From Bryobacterales bacterium (GTDB lineage Bacteria; Acidobacteriota; Terriglobia; Bryobacterales; UBA6623), in the NCBI GenBank assembly GCA_026713545.1, contig JAPOOG010000109.1, positions 1-64,000 on the forward strand: 64,000 bases of DNA. Direction: 5' to 3'. The notes beneath the pieces are model-generated. The model did no database searches, was not told where the DNA came from, and saw only the letters and a program-made list of their open reading frames with translations. The position numbers were made by a program, and so were the translations under genes. Position 1 is the stretch's first letter; the number at the start of each line of letters is the position of its first letter. Shown one piece after another: positions 3,354 through 54,306 of this stretch.

Positions 3354-3454
3354 GGCAGGGTCTCACGTACGAGTCTAGGCGCTCACAGGTCCCCAAGGCT
3401 ACTACGAACCCGAACCGACGGCACTGCCGAAGAGAATATCCACAGCTTTTCTAA

Positions 3455-3615
3455 CCTGCATGTCTCACCACGCGGCGAGGCGAAGTGCGTGAGAGGGTCG
3501 TCAGAGATTTCTTCTTGGAGCGAACCAGGCCCCCGTCAATGGTTTTCACGAATCACGAGACACGAATCACGGCTTTTTTCGCATGCTTCGGCCGTCGGGT
3601 GGTGAGAAATGCAGG
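3455..3615 (+). repeat. Family-1 element, both ends present, short interior with CACGAATCACGA tandem motif
   Basis: CTAA-CCTGCATGTCTCACC ... GGTGAGAAATGCAGG-TTAG inverted ends. Confidence 0.88.
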
Positions 3616-3619
3616 TTAG

Positions 3620-7442: not shown

Positions 7443-7525
7443 CTCGCCGATAGTGACCGCCAAGTACTGCGACCGCCATGTGCAACGCCCGATTAGCATA
7501 GTCGAACGCTTATCACAGGCTCTAG

Positions 7526-7723
7526 CCGGCATGTCTCACCACGCGGCGAGGTGCAGTGCGTGAGAGGGTCGTCAGGACGAGGCGCGAGACGGGCGGAGGA
7601 AAAAGGCGCGCGCAGGCGTACTTGACCGTACGTCGAGCACGGCAAGCAAGCGTTGCGAAAGAAAAGCGAAGTCATGGCTGTCGTATTGCGTGTTTCGGCC
7701 GTCGGATTGGTGAGAAATGCCGT
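7526..7723 (+). repeat. Family-1 element, full length (198 bp), flanked by CTAG on both sides
   Basis: CTAG (7522-7525) CCGGCATGTCTCACC ... GGTGAGAAATGCCGT CTAG (7724-7727). Confidence 0.88.
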
Positions 7724-9910: not shown

Positions 9911-9994
9911 CCTTCACGTGTGTCAGTTTATCGACGGAATCCACAAGATGTCAACGCAGTCGCCGTCATGGAGATGGGTTGGGTGTGACTGCGT

Positions 9995-10777
9995 TCAGCC
10001 GGGCGCCGTGCCGACGGAGAACTCCCATACGCGGAGATCGACTTCGCCGGGAGTGTATTCGATCACAGCGTACTCCCCGCTCGGTAAAGGCTCGACCGAC
10101 CACACTTTATAGACGTGAGGCGCAAGTTGTTGTCGAAAGATCTCGACGGTCTCGTGCGTCTCAATAACTTCCTTCGATTCAGGAATCCTCTGGATGACCT
10201 GCACTTCGCGGCGCTTGCTTTTTGCTTTGAGCCGCAGGATCTCAAGTCGGGAGATCTTCTCGAGCCGCACGTAGAACATCGGCCTGCTGTCCGTGGCCAC
10301 GAAAGACGAAGTCGGCCCTTCAACCTCAAGGGTCATTTTGTCGGCAGTCGGTAGTGGAGAGAGCACCCTCAACAGGATTGCTGTCTGGCTGTTGTTTTCG
10401 ATCAGTTCGGCCTGCTGGACCGGGACGATCTCGTTGCCTTTGAGGTAATAGACGCCGTCCTCCAACGGCACTCGATACAACTCGGTGCGCGCCTTGCGCT
10501 CGGCTGTACGCAATGCTTGCTCCTGTTTCCGGCGAACCTGGCGTACGGCTTCCTTGCGCTCTTGTTCCCGCTGTGTTCGCTCGAGATTCACGAGCTGAAG
10601 CGGTATTACCTCCCACGCGCTCCGTTCTACGCTGTAGTAACGGACACGGTCACCCTCGACCGCGTACTCGCTGACCAGAAGATCGCCGCCACCTTCCAGG
10701 TAGAGCTTGACCCGGGCGCCGGAAAGAGGCGCCAGCAACGCCAGAACAAGGATGAGAACCAGAATCCGTACAAGCAT
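9995..10777 (-). CDS. Secreted hypothetical protein
   Basis: Signal sequence MLVRILVLILVLALLAPLSGA followed by a charged, coiled-coil-like region. No recognised domain. Confidence 0.65.
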   Translation of the reverse strand: MLVRILVLILVLALLAPLSGARVKLYLEGGGDLLVSEYAVEGDRVRYYSVERSAWEVIPLQLVNLERTQREQERKEAVRQVRRKQEQALRTAERKARTELYRVPLEDGVYYLKGNEIVPVQQAELIENNSQTAILLRVLSPLPTADKMTLEVEGPTSSFVATDSRPMFYVRLEKISRLEILRLKAKSKRREVQVIQRIPESKEVIETHETVEIFRQQLAPHVYKVWSVEPLPSGEYAVIEYTPGEVDLRVWEFSVGTAPG

Positions 10778-11041: not shown

Positions 11042-11045
11042 CTGG

Positions 11046-11207
11046 CCTGCATGTCTCACCACGCGGCCAGGTGAAGTGCGTGAGAGGGCCGTCAGGACGA
11101 GGCGCGAGCCGCCCGCGCCAGCAACTCGGCATTTAAGATTTTTCACGAAACACGAATCACGGCCTTTTTATCGCGTGCCTCGGCCGTCGGGTGGTGAGAA
11201 ATGCAGG
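11046..11207 (+). repeat. Family-1 element (162 bp), short interior type
   Basis: CCTGCATGTCTCACCACGCGG ... GTCGGGTGGTGAGAAATGCAGG; interior TTTTTCACGAAACACGAATCACGG shared with 3455 and 22950 copies. Confidence 0.88.
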
Positions 11208-11525
11208 TCAGCTCCCAAGTTCTTCAAGCGCCGCTTCTAGCTCGCTACAGGCATGCAGGTCGCCCGAGCGCCTGGCCACCTCGATCCCCCTGCGGTAGGT
11301 CTCACCCGCCTGGGCCGAATGGCCCAGTCTTTCGAGCGCCTTGCCGGAGTGATAGTAGGCCGCCTGGTAGTCCGGGTTGATCGAAAGGATCTTGTTGAAC
11401 TCATCGACCGCCTTCTCGTGATCGCCCCGCTTCACGTACTCTTGCGCGATGCCGTACCGCGAAAAGCAGTCGTTGGGATTGCCTTCCACGAACTGTTTGA
11501 GGATTTCGATTCTGTTCGCAGCCAT
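11208..11525 (-). CDS. Small tetratricopeptide-repeat protein
   Basis: NDCFSRYGIAQEYVKRGDHEKAVDEFNKILSINPDYQAAYYHSGKALERLGHSAQAGETYRRGIEVA: consecutive TPR units. Confidence 0.85.
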   Translation of the reverse strand: MAANRIEILKQFVEGNPNDCFSRYGIAQEYVKRGDHEKAVDEFNKILSINPDYQAAYYHSGKALERLGHSAQAGETYRRGIEVARRSGDLHACSELEAALEELGS

Positions 11526-11586: not shown

Positions 11587-11628
11587 CTGGTCTGTATTTC
11601 TCGCCGTGTGGTGAGGAATGCAGGCTGG
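11587..11628 (+). repeat. Minimal family-1-like palindrome (ends only, no interior)
   Basis: CTGGTCTGTATTTCTCGCCGTGTGGTGAGGAATGCAGGCTGG. Confidence 0.65.
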
Positions 11629-12627: not shown

Positions 12628-12656
12628 ACCGAAGAATCGAGCTAGGCGCGGCTTGG

Positions 12657-12842
12657 CCTGCATGTCTCACCACGTTGCGAGGCGAAGTGCGTGAGAGGGC
12701 CGTCAGGACGAGGCGCGAGCCGGGCGGAGGAAAAAGGCGCGCGCAGGCGTACTTGACAGTACGTCGAGCACGGCAAGCAAGCGCAACGAAGTCCTGGCGG
12801 TCGTATCGCGTGCTTCGACCGTCGAGTGGTGAGAAATGCAGG
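12657..12842 (+). repeat. Family-1 element, full length (186 bp)
   Basis: CCTGCATGTCTCACCACG ... GTGGTGAGAAATGCAGG; interior GCGTACTTGACAGTACGTCGAGCACGGCAAGCAAGCG shared with 7526 and 54108 copies. Confidence 0.9.
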
Positions 12843-12852
12843 TTAGTGCAAA

Positions 12853-23580: not shown

Positions 23581-23655
23581 AGCATGCATTTCTCACCACG
23601 CGGCGAGGTCAAGCGCGTGAGAGGGCCGTCAGGAGGAGGCGCGAGCCGCTGGTGG
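23581..23655 (+). repeat. Family-1 element, left part
   Basis: AGCATGCATTTCTCACCACGCGGCGAGGTCAAGCGCGTGAGAGGGCCGTCAGGAGGAGGCGCGAGCCGC. Confidence 0.8.
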
Positions 23656-40634: not shown

Positions 40635-40854
40635 GCTTGCGTGATGCACCTCCGTCGCAGGTCGGCGCCAGTTTAGCAGATCAGATCGGGTTTAACAGCC
40701 CGTGTCAATAGCCCCGCTGCATTCAAGCGGCGATGCATCCCGGCTGAACTGCGTTGCTTCTCGGTCGAATATGTTCAATATGCTCCCTCGTCGCGCCTTG
40801 TCAGCCGGGCGCCTCGGCACTCTCGGTGCTACTCGGGGTTTCACCACGGACTGT

Positions 40855-41622
40855 TCAAGGCTCCAGGCGGTTCTCTGTGGATTCCGGGTATTCCACGCGG
40901 ACCAGACAGAGCCCTTTCGCCGGGGCCGTGGCGCCAGCCGCCGATCTTCGCTTATTGTCGAGAATAGCAGAGACATCGTCGGCTTTGAGCCGGCAGCGGC
41001 CTACGTCGAGCAGCGTGCCTACGATGTTCCGGACCATGTGATAAAGGAATCCATCCCCTCTGACATGATAGATCAGCCGTTCGCCGTCGCGGCTCAGCGC
41101 GGAAGAGAAGATCGTTCGGACAGGCGATGCAACTTCGTCGCCACCCGCCGCGGCGAGCGACCGGAAGTCGTGCCTCCCGACAAATCGCTCAGCGGCCTTG
41201 CACATCGCTGCCTCGTCAAGCGGGTAAGGATGATGGTAGACGTAGCGGGCAACGAAGGGCGGGCAGATAGCGTCCCGCCAGACCCGATACTCGTAGAATT
41301 TGCCGCTAGCCGAGTGGCGGGCGTGGAACTCCCGGGATGCCTGTTCGAGCGAGACAACCCGAACCGCTTCCGGGAGCAAGCGGTTCATTGCCCTGAGGAG
41401 ATTGTCGGTGGGAATGGGGTTGGCGAGTGCGAACGAAGCAACCTGGCCCAGCGCATGAACACCGGCGTCGGTTCGTCCGGCACCCTGCACATCGACAGGG
41501 ACACCTTCGATCTCGGCGAGTGCGTCCTTCAGGACGCCTTGAACGGTCGAGCGATTCGGCTGGATCTGCCAGCCGTGGAAGTCCGTGCCATCGTATGCGA
41601 GAGTCGCTTTGAAATGGCGCAT
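40855..41622 (-). CDS. truA: tRNA pseudouridine(38-40) synthase
   Basis: FKATLAYDGTDFHGWQIQPNRSTVQGVLKDAL; GAGRTDAGVHALGQVASF; DGFLYHMVRNIVGTLLDVG. Confidence 0.97.
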   Translation of the reverse strand: MRHFKATLAYDGTDFHGWQIQPNRSTVQGVLKDALAEIEGVPVDVQGAGRTDAGVHALGQVASFALANPIPTDNLLRAMNRLLPEAVRVVSLEQASREFHARHSASGKFYEYRVWRDAICPPFVARYVYHHPYPLDEAAMCKAAERFVGRHDFRSLAAAGGDEVASPVRTIFSSALSRDGERLIYHVRGDGFLYHMVRNIVGTLLDVGRCRLKADDVSAILDNKRRSAAGATAPAKGLCLVRVEYPESTENRLEP

Positions 41623-41638
41623 CCGAAATCAGAGGCCA

Positions 41639-41904
41639 TAGCAGCCCGTGGTAAAAGTTACGCGGGCGGGGTTACGCGCCCCGGGGCCGATGGCGCAACG
41701 TCTGGCCGCTCCAGTAGCGCGGAGCCGAGCTCTCCGCGCAGCTGAGCAGAAGTGGCGCGTAACCCTTCGAGCAACGGACGTTTGCGGCCGTCGGCTTTGT
41801 CGCTCGTCAGAGGAGATCACCCGGATCGCCATCTTCCTCACTCCGCGCCGAGGATGAGCAGGAGCCCGCCGCCTCTTCCACGGGACTTTTACCACGGGCT
41901 GCCA
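41639..41904 (+). repeat. Family-2 palindromic element (about 266 bp), intergenic
   Basis: TAGCAGCCCGTGGTAAAA ... TTTTACCACGGGCTGCCA perfect inner TIRs; interior alignable with 51612-51891. Confidence 0.88.
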
Positions 41905-42154
41905 GGGAGCGCCACGGGCAACCGCTAACCTTTCGGGCTCCGAAGGCGTCTCTAATAGGGTGGCCATTGTCAGCGAATCAGCGCAGTGTTAGGATAACAA
42001 AGAACTTCCGCCACCCATGCCTGCAAACCTTCTGCAGGGTTACCTCACCACAAGCTACAGCACCGACAGCGTACTCGCAGAACGGAGCCGGCCGAACCCA
42101 GTTTGATCGCATCCGCTCGGGTTGGAGTTCGCTCGCAGACTCGGAGAATCCGTG

Positions 42155-51463: not shown

Positions 51464-51584
51464 GCCATTGACTCACTTAGGGAAATGGATGCGTCCGCCG
51501 CAGGGGGCTCAACAAGCTCGCCGCGCGCCAAACGCAGGGTATACTGTTACGGTTTCTCGACGCGAAAACCCTTCGGAGGACTTT

Positions 51585-52865
51585 GTGAACCGAGCAATTG
51601 GGCTCACCATTCTAGCAGCCCGTAGTAAAATTCACGCGGTCGGCGTTACGCATCTCCGGACCGATTGCGTAACGCCTAGCCGCTCCAGCAACACTGCGCC
51701 TCGCTCTCTCCGCGCAGCCGATCGGAAGTGGCGCGTAACCGTTCGGGCGACGGACGTTTGCGACCGTCGGCTTTTTCCTTCGCAAGGAGGAGTTCACCCG
51801 GATCACATCCCCCTCTCACCGCGCCGAGCGACCGCATCAGCCCGCCGCGCTTTTTCCTTCGCACCATTGGAGTTTTACCACGGGCTGCTAGCACTGGCCT
51901 TGGGTTGTGCATGGCTGACCGGTAGCGCTTGCGCGCCGGCTTCCGAGTCCGTGATGGAGAGTACCCCTGCGGACGGCATTCCCAAGGTCGAGGCCGCCGC
52001 GAGCATCGCCTTCACCGAGGGGCCGACGGTCTACAAAGACGACAGCATTTTCTTCACCGATACAAGGAGTCACCGCATCATGCGGGCGATGCCCGACGGC
52101 GAGCTCGTTGTCTTCAGGGAGAACAGCAATCGCGCCAACGGCCTCGTTTTCGACGACCAGTGGCGCCTCATCGCCTGCGAAGGCAGCAACGCCCAACTCG
52201 ACAACCCGAGGCTGACCCGAACCAACCTAGAGACCGGCGAGATCGAGGTCATCGCAGAATCCTTCGGGGACAAACGCCTCAGCCAGCCGAACGACGTCAC
52301 ATTCGACAGTCAGGGCCGCTTGTATTTCACAGACCGCCCCCGCAGGGATCCCGCGCCCGACCAGACGAACGTCGATGCCGTCTACCGCATCGACACCGAC
52401 GGTTCGATCCATCAGATCCTCAAAGCGCCCGACATCGACAAGCCGAACGGCCTTGTCATTTCCCCGGACGACAAGACGTTCTATTTGATCGAGGCGCATC
52501 CCGACGCCGACCGCGCCCGGATGATCCGAGCCTATGACCTGCAGCCTGACGGAACGGTCACGAACATGAGGGTCTTTCACGATTTCTATCCTGGCCGCAG
52601 CGGCGACGGAATGACCATCGACAGCGAAGGCAACCTCTACGTTGCCGCCGGCCTGCATCGTCTGCGCAAGACCAGCGAGACCCTCGACACGAAGTGCGGC
52701 GTCCACGTTTTCGCACCGGACGGCGAGCTGATTCAGTTCGTTCCGATCCCTGAGGACATCATTACGAACTGCGCCTTCGGAGGTCCCGACATGAAGGCCC
52801 TCTATGTCACAGCCGGGAAAACGCTGTTCAAGTTCAACACCGAGATCAAGGGCACCCGCCGATAG
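51585..52865 (+). CDS. SMP-30/gluconolactonase-like secreted protein, signal-peptide codons interrupted in frame by a 276-bp repeat element
   Basis: GGAGGA Shine-Dalgarno (51575-51580) before GTG 51585. MNRAIGLTIL | element | ALALGCAWLTGSACAPAS; then AASIAFTEGPTVYKDDSIFFTDT...NGLVISPDDKTFYLIEAHPDADRARMIRAYD. Confidence 0.85.
   Translation: MNRAIGLTILAARSKIHAVGVTHLRTDCVTPSRSSNTAPRSLRAADRKWRVTVRATDVCDRRLFPSQGGVHPDHIPLSPRRATASARRAFSFAPLEFYHGLLALALGCAWLTGSACAPASESVMESTPADGIPKVEAAASIAFTEGPTVYKDDSIFFTDTRSHRIMRAMPDGELVVFRENSNRANGLVFDDQWRLIACEGSNAQLDNPRLTRTNLETGEIEVIAESFGDKRLSQPNDVTFDSQGRLYFTDRPRRDPAPDQTNVDAVYRIDTDGSIHQILKAPDIDKPNGLVISPDDKTFYLIEAHPDADRARMIRAYDLQPDGTVTNMRVFHDFYPGRSGDGMTIDSEGNLYVAAGLHRLRKTSETLDTKCGVHVFAPDGELIQFVPIPEDIITNCAFGGPDMKALYVTAGKTLFKFNTEIKGTRR
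51612..51891 (+). repeat. Family-2 palindromic element inserted in the SMP-30-like gene, CTAG on both sides
   Basis: CTAGCAGCCCGTAGTAAAA ... TTTTACCACGGGCTGCTAG. 276 bp between the two CTAG starts. Confidence 0.9.
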
Positions 52866-52890
52866 CCTGCATGTCTCGCCACGCGGTGAT
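52866..52890 (+). repeat. Family-1 left-end fragment directly after the SMP-30-like stop codon
   Basis: TAG (stop) then CCTGCATGTCTCGCCACGCGGTGAT. Confidence 0.65.
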
Positions 52891-52937: not shown

Positions 52938-54107
52938 ATGAGACTTTCGAGCCGTATGGAAGGCGTCCGCGGCGAGGGCGCATTTGATGTTCTGGTGAAA
53001 GCACGGGCTCTCGAAGCCAAGGGTCACTCCATCATCCACATGGAAATCGGCGAGCCCGACTTCCCGACGCCAGTGAATATTGTCGAGGCCGGACGGCAGG
53101 CGCTTGCCGGCGGCTGGACGAAATACGGTGCTACACAAGGCGATCCCGAGTTACGAGAGGTGATCGCAGAACGGGTTTCGAAAACCCGCGGCATTTCCGT
53201 CAGCGAGCAGAACGTCGTCGTAACGCCTGGCGGCAAGCCCATCCTTTTCTTCCCATTGCTGGCGTTACTCGAACCCGGTGACGAGGTACTCTATCCGAAC
53301 CCAAGCTTCCCCATCTACGAGTCCGTCATTCGTTACTGCGGAGCGGCACCCCTGCCGCTGCCACTGGTTGAAGAACGTGGGTTCTCGCTCGACCTCGACA
53401 TGCTGCGCGCGAAGCTGTCTACCCGCACCAAGGTTCTGATGATCAACTCGCCTCAGAACCCGACAGGCGGCGTCATCCCCGAAGAGGACATCCGAGCTAT
53501 CGCCGAATTGGTCCGCGACCGCGACCTCATGGTCCTCTCCGACGAGGTCTACAGCAACATCTACTTCAACCGCAAGCCATTCTCGATCGCGTCGCTACCG
53601 GGGATGGCCGAGAAGACGATCATCCTTGACGGCTTCTCCAAGACGTACTCCATGACCGGTTGGCGCATGGGTTATGGAGTCATGCCGAAATGGCTCGTGG
53701 ATGGGGTCTGCCTGATGATGGTCAACTGCGTATCACACACGGCCAGCTTTTCGCAGCGGGCAGGCATCGAAGCCCTCACGGGTCCACAAGAAGCCGTAGC
53801 CGAGATGGTTGCGGAATTCAAGCGACGGCGCGAGGTGATCGTCGAGGGCTTTAACCGCATCCCCGGCTTTTCGTGCACTATGCCCGGGGGGGCATTCTAC
53901 GCTTTCCCGAACGTCAAGAAGACGGGAATTCCTTCCGATGATCTGGCCGACCGCATCCTCAACGAGGCCGGAGTGGCATGCCTGACGGGGACGAGCTTCG
54001 GCTCGTTCGGCGAGGGCTACCTGCGCTTCAGCTACGCGACCGCGCTGGACCAGATCCACGAAGCTCTCGACCGCATCGACAGAATGATGCGCGGCATCTT
54101 GGGTTAA
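52938..54107 (+). CDS. Pyridoxal phosphate-dependent aminotransferase (class I/II)
   Basis: IIHMEIGEPDFPTPVNIVEAG, INSPQNPTGGVIPEEDI, LSDEVYSNIYF, DGFSKTYSMTGWRMGYGV. Confidence 0.95.
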   Translation: MRLSSRMEGVRGEGAFDVLVKARALEAKGHSIIHMEIGEPDFPTPVNIVEAGRQALAGGWTKYGATQGDPELREVIAERVSKTRGISVSEQNVVVTPGGKPILFFPLLALLEPGDEVLYPNPSFPIYESVIRYCGAAPLPLPLVEERGFSLDLDMLRAKLSTRTKVLMINSPQNPTGGVIPEEDIRAIAELVRDRDLMVLSDEVYSNIYFNRKPFSIASLPGMAEKTIILDGFSKTYSMTGWRMGYGVMPKWLVDGVCLMMVNCVSHTASFSQRAGIEALTGPQEAVAEMVAEFKRRREVIVEGFNRIPGFSCTMPGGAFYAFPNVKKTGIPSDDLADRILNEAGVACLTGTSFGSFGEGYLRFSYATALDQIHEALDRIDRMMRGILG

Positions 54108-54294
54108 CCTGCCTTTCTCACTACCCGACGGCCGAAGCACGCGATACGACCGCCATGACTTCGCTTTTCCTTCGCAACGCTTGCTTGCCGTGCTCGACGT
54201 ACTGTCGAGTACGCCTGCGCGCGCCAAGCGGCGCGCGCCTCGTCCTGACGGCCCTCTCGCGCACTTCTCCTCGCCACGTGGTGAGAAATGCAGG
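54108..54294 (-). repeat. Family-1 element, full length (187 bp), opposite orientation
   Basis: Reverse complement begins CCTGCATTTCTCACCACGTGGCGAGGAGAAGTGCGCGAGAGGGCCGTCAGGACGAGGCGCGCGCC; carries GGCGCGCGCC hairpin and GTACTCGACAGTAC. Confidence 0.9.
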
Positions 54295-54306
54295 TCAGGC
54301 CGCATT

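Follow-up and report, generated by a model that had tools for sequence, protein, structure and literature searches.

Selfish repeats lying in frame in protein genes have been a speciality of Rickettsia. Tc1/mariner-IS630-type MITEs, such as Correia elements, have TA-centred targets, short inverted repeats and high copy numbers. The Rickettsia palindromic elements (RPE) are short palindromic repeats found in frame in unrelated protein genes, with a conserved peptide in one frame (PMC10969869; the original reports, by Ogata et al., are cited there). In-frame gene fusions are known for RPE, ERIC and RU elements (PMC10969869, PMC2759123), and in one RU-2 fusion the repeat supplies part of a predicted signal peptide (PMC2759123). 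A 4-bp YTAR target duplication, in turn, is the stated motif of IS5 (PMC10359306).

The window considered here (the whole stretch of DNA that was analysed, 64,000 nucleotides) belongs to a Bryobacterales genome of the Acidobacteriota (5.6 Mb in 170 contigs; G000), in which a palindromic mobile element had been predicted to lie in frame within the signal-peptide codons of an SMP-30 gene. The original prediction likened it to RPE in a different phylum, and in-frame insertion into protein genes was indeed observed, with copies in Bryobacterales. The GGAGGA, the GTG at 51585, the CTAGs at 51612-51615 and 51888-51891 and the open frame were all present in the sequence, and the inverted ends, the repeat copies and the open frame confirmed the insertion itself. 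In order, the occupied gene reads MNRAIGLTI, CTAG, a 272-bp repeat, a second CTAG, ALALGCAWLTGSACAPAS and then the propeller, and its frame stays open across the repeat into the SMP-30 domain; the 272-bp element plus one CTAG amounts to 276 bp, that is, 92 stop-free codons in phase 0. The features of the locus and of its relatives in the window are as follows.

51575 to 51580, plus strand: GGAGGA, ribosome-binding site of the SMP-30 gene, read from the sequence and conserved in the sister genome G001
51585 to 51611, plus strand: GTG start and first nine signal-peptide codons (MNRAIGLTI); start conserved in G001 and in the congener G002
51612 to 51615, plus strand: left CTAG copy of the target duplication, matched by a single CTAG and a 4-bp flank overlap at the empty site
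51616 to 51887, plus strand: MITE-like element, type A, 272 bp
51616 to 51633, plus strand: left terminal inverted repeat, CAGCCCGTAGTAAAATTC
51870 to 51887, minus strand: right terminal inverted repeat, CAGCCCGTGGTAAAACTC as read on that strand
51888 to 51891, plus strand: right CTAG copy of the target duplication, matched by the single CTAG at the G001 empty site
51892 to 51944, plus strand: remaining signal peptide, with the hydrophobic core ALALGCAWL and the processing region SACAPA, intact
52011 to 52814, plus strand: SMP-30/gluconolactonase beta-propeller domain (PF08450, E 1.9e-47)
51585 to 52865, plus strand: entire occupied gene, 426 codons including the insert
41642 to 41901, plus strand: intergenic type A copy of 260 bp, the second in the window (placed at 41638-41905 by the end motif)
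40696 to 40853, plus strand: type B relative, 158 bp, with the same ends

The inverted arms (51612-51633 and 51870-51891) are 22 nt long and 91% complementary, and the predicted transcript folds at -123 kcal/mol (z = -5.8 versus shuffles). With up to three mismatches, the 19-bp end motif occurs four times in the window versus 0.01 expected by chance, and two of these four occurrences belong to the second copy. A tRNA pseudouridine synthase gene (40858-41622, minus strand) sits between the type B and type A members with the same terminal sequence. In an AlphaFold2 model of the occupied protein, the propeller was confident and residues 1-130 had pLDDT <50, which is expected because this stretch occurs in only one or two sequences of the alignment.

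The sister genome G001, 96% identical, was found to carry the exact empty site with one CTAG (...ATTGGGATCACCATTCTAGCACTGGCC...), reading ACCATTCTAGCACTGGCC at the insertion locus between flanks that are 96% identical and gap-free. This is the empty site that had been foreseen by collapsing the two CTAGs into one, and the SMP-30 ORF measures 467 aa in G000 versus 375 aa in G001, a difference of exactly 92 codons. Both G001 and G002 (VNQAVGLIILASTLCLAALGGSAC), a less closely related congener, have kept the GTG start and a signal peptide at this position, and the SMP-30 gene of G002 has no insert. Hence, neither of the two circumstances that had been named as speaking against an insertion, an equivalent sequence in all orthologs or a downstream start with the upstream GTG never translated in relatives, was encountered: G001 lacks the element, and relatives conserve the upstream GTG. 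The empty site in G001, together with the insert-free gene of G002, indicates that the insertion occurred on the G000 side.

The element is a non-autonomous MITE-like transposable element with a 4-bp YTAR-type target duplication: it has terminal inverted repeats and a target duplication relative to the empty site, and it is short and present in many copies. In fact, G000 gave 51 BLAST matches to the element and about 128 occurrences of the ends CAGYCCGTGNNAAAAGYC with two mismatches allowed, versus six for a reversed control pattern, while exact ends numbered 74 in G001, three in the nearly free G002 and a few in G006. The sizes bounded by family ends were ~260-272 bp for type A, ~340-353 bp for long type A and 158 or 179 bp for type B, besides shorter ones. 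The flanking 4-mers were often identical and YTAR-like (CTAG, TTAG, TTAA), CTAT and TATA occurring too, and an exact 4-bp overlap was seen at the clean empty sites of the SMP-30 copy (L001) and of a type B copy (L091). A 2-bp TA duplication of the IS630-like kind was rejected on account of copies flanked by TTAA/TTAA, CTAT/CTAT and TATA/TATA and of the 4-bp overlap at clean empty sites.

Regarding the systems already described, the element differs from RPE in size (~260-272 bp versus ~150 bp) and in host (Acidobacteriota versus Rickettsia) and, going by the description of RPE, is set apart by its transposon-type ends, 4-bp duplication, empty site and concentration in signal peptides. The enterobacterial RU and ERIC elements resemble it as MITE-like repeats fused in frame with genes (PMC2759123), but they come from other taxa, have other sizes, count a single reported signal-peptide case versus six in one genome here, and lack a series of empty sites in a sister genome. 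IS5-type elements share the YTAR duplication (here CTAG, TTAG, TTAA and others, with TATA and CTAT occurring too), whereas our element has no internal transposase and its ends were absent among the transposases checked. The Tc1/mariner-IS630-type MITEs, in contrast, are set apart by the 4-bp duplication of the element and by the DDE_3 loci of G000, which lack its ends. What this case adds is the phylum, the gathering of copies in signal peptides within one genome, the census of phase and orientation, and the empty sites.

This census, which covered the copies with flanking sequence without prior selection and relied on crude gene and signal-peptide calls, yielded eight clear in-gene copies in G000, six of them in signal peptides and two in cytosolic genes (a slash marks the insertion point).

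L001, SMP-30: MNRAIGLTIL / ALALGCAWLTGSAC, signal peptide
L009, VWA: MKT / L-ALTLLAASCPLFAPASSAQE, signal peptide
L018, sulfatase lipoprotein: MRF / SAASFSLFLLLSSCGG, signal peptide
L020, methyltransferase lipoprotein: MHLATRHY / GLAITSIVLWAGCS, signal peptide
L023, FGE-sulfatase: MKARCLDAAG / LFAALAASWLCPAAAE, signal peptide, antisense insertion
L085, type B copy: MMTAS / RRLLAAVCLAPALLAAD, signal peptide
L007, thioredoxin-reductase-like, cytosolic: insertion after codon 2
L004, phosphoglucose isomerase, cytosolic: mid-gene insertion, in frame

All six signal-peptide insertions lie at or just ahead of the hydrophobic core. G001 was unoccupied at each of the eight sites, as established by DNA for L001, L020 and L085, by a gap-free protein match over the junction for L004, L018 and L023, and by ORF length for L007 (461 minus 88 = 373) and L009. 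For another three or so copies (L077, L021, L096) the picture is ambiguous, and they could lie out of phase. Several in-gene end pairs of G001 itself (up to four mismatches; for example, L220 and L264) were discarded as false pairs, having no duplication. Near 9930-10040 of a G001 contig (C19; locus L264), the ortholog of the L085 gene lacks the in-frame type B copy and has a type A end immediately before its ATG, an end that is missing from G000; this gene start has received independent insertions in the two genomes.

In one orientation, the type A consensus and most type B copies have one phase that adds a multiple of three and is free of stops, and in this readable phase the target codon is YTA (leucine), followed by A or G. 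The eight clear in-gene copies all have a phase and orientation that stay open. Among them, the type A copies are readable as placed in seven of seven cases, six in sense phase 0 and one, L023, in antisense; the latter is the only in-gene antisense copy and also the sole copy with an open antisense phase 0. Of the 35 type A copies outside genes, 15 can be read in sense phase 0, with an open frame whose length is a multiple of three, and none can be read in any of the other five combinations. The chance per copy is roughly 0.11 (15/35 times one quarter), giving a figure of the order of 1e-7 for seven of seven, which serves as a guide in view of the small number of cases and the crude gene calls. 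Moreover, YTAR in genes is limited to two phases because the third creates a stop codon, and this phase was found nowhere in 711 gene calls, while with the commonest end sequence phase 1 runs into a TAA within the inverted repeat. This distribution suggests that selection favours translation across the element and that frame-breaking copies are lost, and, as the latter are seemingly not retained, the frame through the element would be in use.

The peptide so encoded (LAARGKSHAGGVTRPG...PPRLPRDFYHGLL) gives no hint of an independent function, because codon positions evolve alike and synonymous changes are not in excess: among type A copies no third-position excess was detected and the synonymous fraction was as simulated. 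Given this absence of coding constraint, no function is claimed for the insert peptide. The number of stop-free copies agreed with descent from an open master copy (P 0.11-0.13), and the insert peptide matched no Pfam domain, transposases included.

The concentration in signal peptides is in part a matter of target choice. A phase-0 YTAR consists of CTA or TTA, both leucine codons, and then a codon that begins with A or G, and its frequency per 1000 codons was 4.6 in signal-peptide codons 2-20, 2.0 in other N-termini and ~0.75 in gene bodies, which makes signal-peptide codons 6-7 times denser in targets than gene bodies. Genes with signal peptides represented 17.7% of the 711 crude calls, and signal peptides one third of the N-terminal targets. 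If tolerance at the N-terminus were the only factor, finding six of seven N-terminal insertions in signal peptides would have a P near 0.007; given all targets in genes, P is <1e-6, the gene-body total being an estimate. The remainder of the bias probably comes from tolerance, and the location of the insertions suggests that they are tolerated where the extra segment could be removed during export. In all six signal-peptide genes the most hydrophobic 10-residue window is retained after the insert, and in four of the six this window includes the element's final residues GLL, which extend the core.

On this basis, the pattern is probably explained by ribosomes reading across the element, which would lengthen the signal peptide at its N-terminus, with in-phase survivors gathering in signal peptides. 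The weak points of this reading are the small number of in-gene cases (n=8) with crude gene and signal-peptide calls, the ambiguous copies, and the absence of codon-level selection on the insert peptide. The ribosome would read through the element from the native start, yielding native codons 1-10, an insert of ~90 residues, basic and rich in Pro, Arg, Ser and Gly, with the hydrophobic core and the cleavage region following intact; the predicted product peptides include MNRAIGLTILAARSK... and those of the insert. Insertions in another phase or orientation would kill the gene and get lost, and the surviving in-gene copies would build up in signal peptides, YTAR being rare in gene bodies and denser there. 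The extended signal peptide is predicted to still work, with signal peptidase removing the insert and leaving the mature protein unchanged. The insert places ~90 residues with a net charge of +4 to +11 ahead of the signal-peptide core, and an insert of such charge and length could impair targeting.

It had been proposed that the protein would be exported only if the element were removed, and would otherwise be made from an internal start. This dichotomy was not borne out: all eight copies are readable, which a restart would not require, and all six signal-peptide genes retain an undamaged hydrophobic core beyond the insert, so that excision, splicing or restart need not be invoked. The simplest reading is a signal peptide lengthened at its N-terminus, with export as a prediction. 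A bolder version is offered tentatively, namely that the family is kept as a translatable cassette, whose YTA-R target (read as Leu, then Ala, Gly, Val and the like) might steer in-phase insertion into leucine-rich cores, the segment being discarded by signal peptidase.

Among the rival explanations, it is unlikely that the signal peptide is destroyed, with a shorter protein from an internal start staying in the cytoplasm, or that the gene is decaying. Candidate in-frame start codons do exist (TTG near 51867, TTG near 51901 and ATG 51954), but they lack a good ribosome-binding site, and a restart would be independent of phase, yet the eight in-gene copies are all readable. As for decay, G001 lacks the insertion, so decay might not yet show; nevertheless, the propeller is 98% identical to that of G001, with no stop or frameshift, and decay leaves the clustering in the signal peptides of several genes unexplained. 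Less probable still is a mainly regulatory insertion, acting as promoter, RNA hairpin or translation start, with the open frame incidental; the strong RNA structure (z = -5.8) and the many other copies just upstream of genes agree with it, but neither the readable phase nor the antisense-open exception (L023) would be expected, and L004, in the middle of the phosphoglucose isomerase gene, is in frame too. Removal of the element before the protein is made or used, by precise DNA excision, RNA splicing or protein splicing, is very improbable, for, despite the exact empty allele in G001, no Rfam family matched in the window, group I and II introns and IStrons included, neither the consensus insert peptide nor the insert part of the fusion matched Pfam, inteins included, the mismatched target duplications in six of the eight in-gene copies favour stably inherited insertions, and an open frame would be unnecessary for removal.

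Should the inserts be translated and then shed along with the signal peptide, this would mark out a part of the proteome that takes large insertions at almost no cost. It would also constitute a route for mobile DNA into coding sequence and a natural test of the length of N-terminal extension that bacterial signal peptides tolerate. A family with ordinary transposon hallmarks and empty sites in a sister genome makes timing, phase and tolerance measurable.

An autonomous insertion sequence with the same ends was found neither in DDE_3, DDE_5 or DDE_Tnp_1 loci nor in 1.7 Mb of G001. The DDE_3/IS630-like loci of G000 lacked the element ends, no DDE_5/IS701 was found, the seven DDE_Tnp_1 loci of G000 and G001 had no paired ends, and ends paired 0.5-3.5 kb apart were just chance pairings of neighbouring MITEs. 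In viral contigs, the end motif gave one match, inside a phage gene, which was judged to be chance. In four other genomes (G217, G014, G017 and G254), identical CAGCCCGTGGTAAAAGTC ends lie ~80-190 bp from the first base of contigs; these contigs could have broken inside a longer, recently multiplied element, a possible autonomous partner in other genera of the order.

The age of the type A insertions presents a paradox in G000 and G001: they are private, yet the copies are strongly divergent and the duplications mismatched. Type A copies lie 5-12% from the consensus with no close pairs, and the 4-bp duplications are mismatched in six of eight in-gene copies, whereas the eight sites are empty in G001, with flanks 94-96% identical where DNA was compared, and no clear orthologous occupied site was seen within the ~1.7 Mb of G001 compared. 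This divergence may have its origin in old polymorphism followed by loss in G001, in diverse sources, in the loss of identical copies during assembly or in error-prone copying.

A second, more abundant repeat family of ~190 bp (CTAGCCTGCATTTCTCACCAC...GTGGTGAGAAATGCAGGCTAG), flanked by CTAG/YTAR, was also observed, with 13 ends in the window versus 0.1 expected and 207 BLAST hits in 1.7 Mb of G001, many of them at contig ends. In the window its ends lie at 2407-2427, 3454-3616, 7525-7545, 11045-11208, 11605-11625, 12656-12843, 23582-23602, 52865-52885 and 54107-54295, and one of them is placed directly 3′ of the SMP-30 stop codon.
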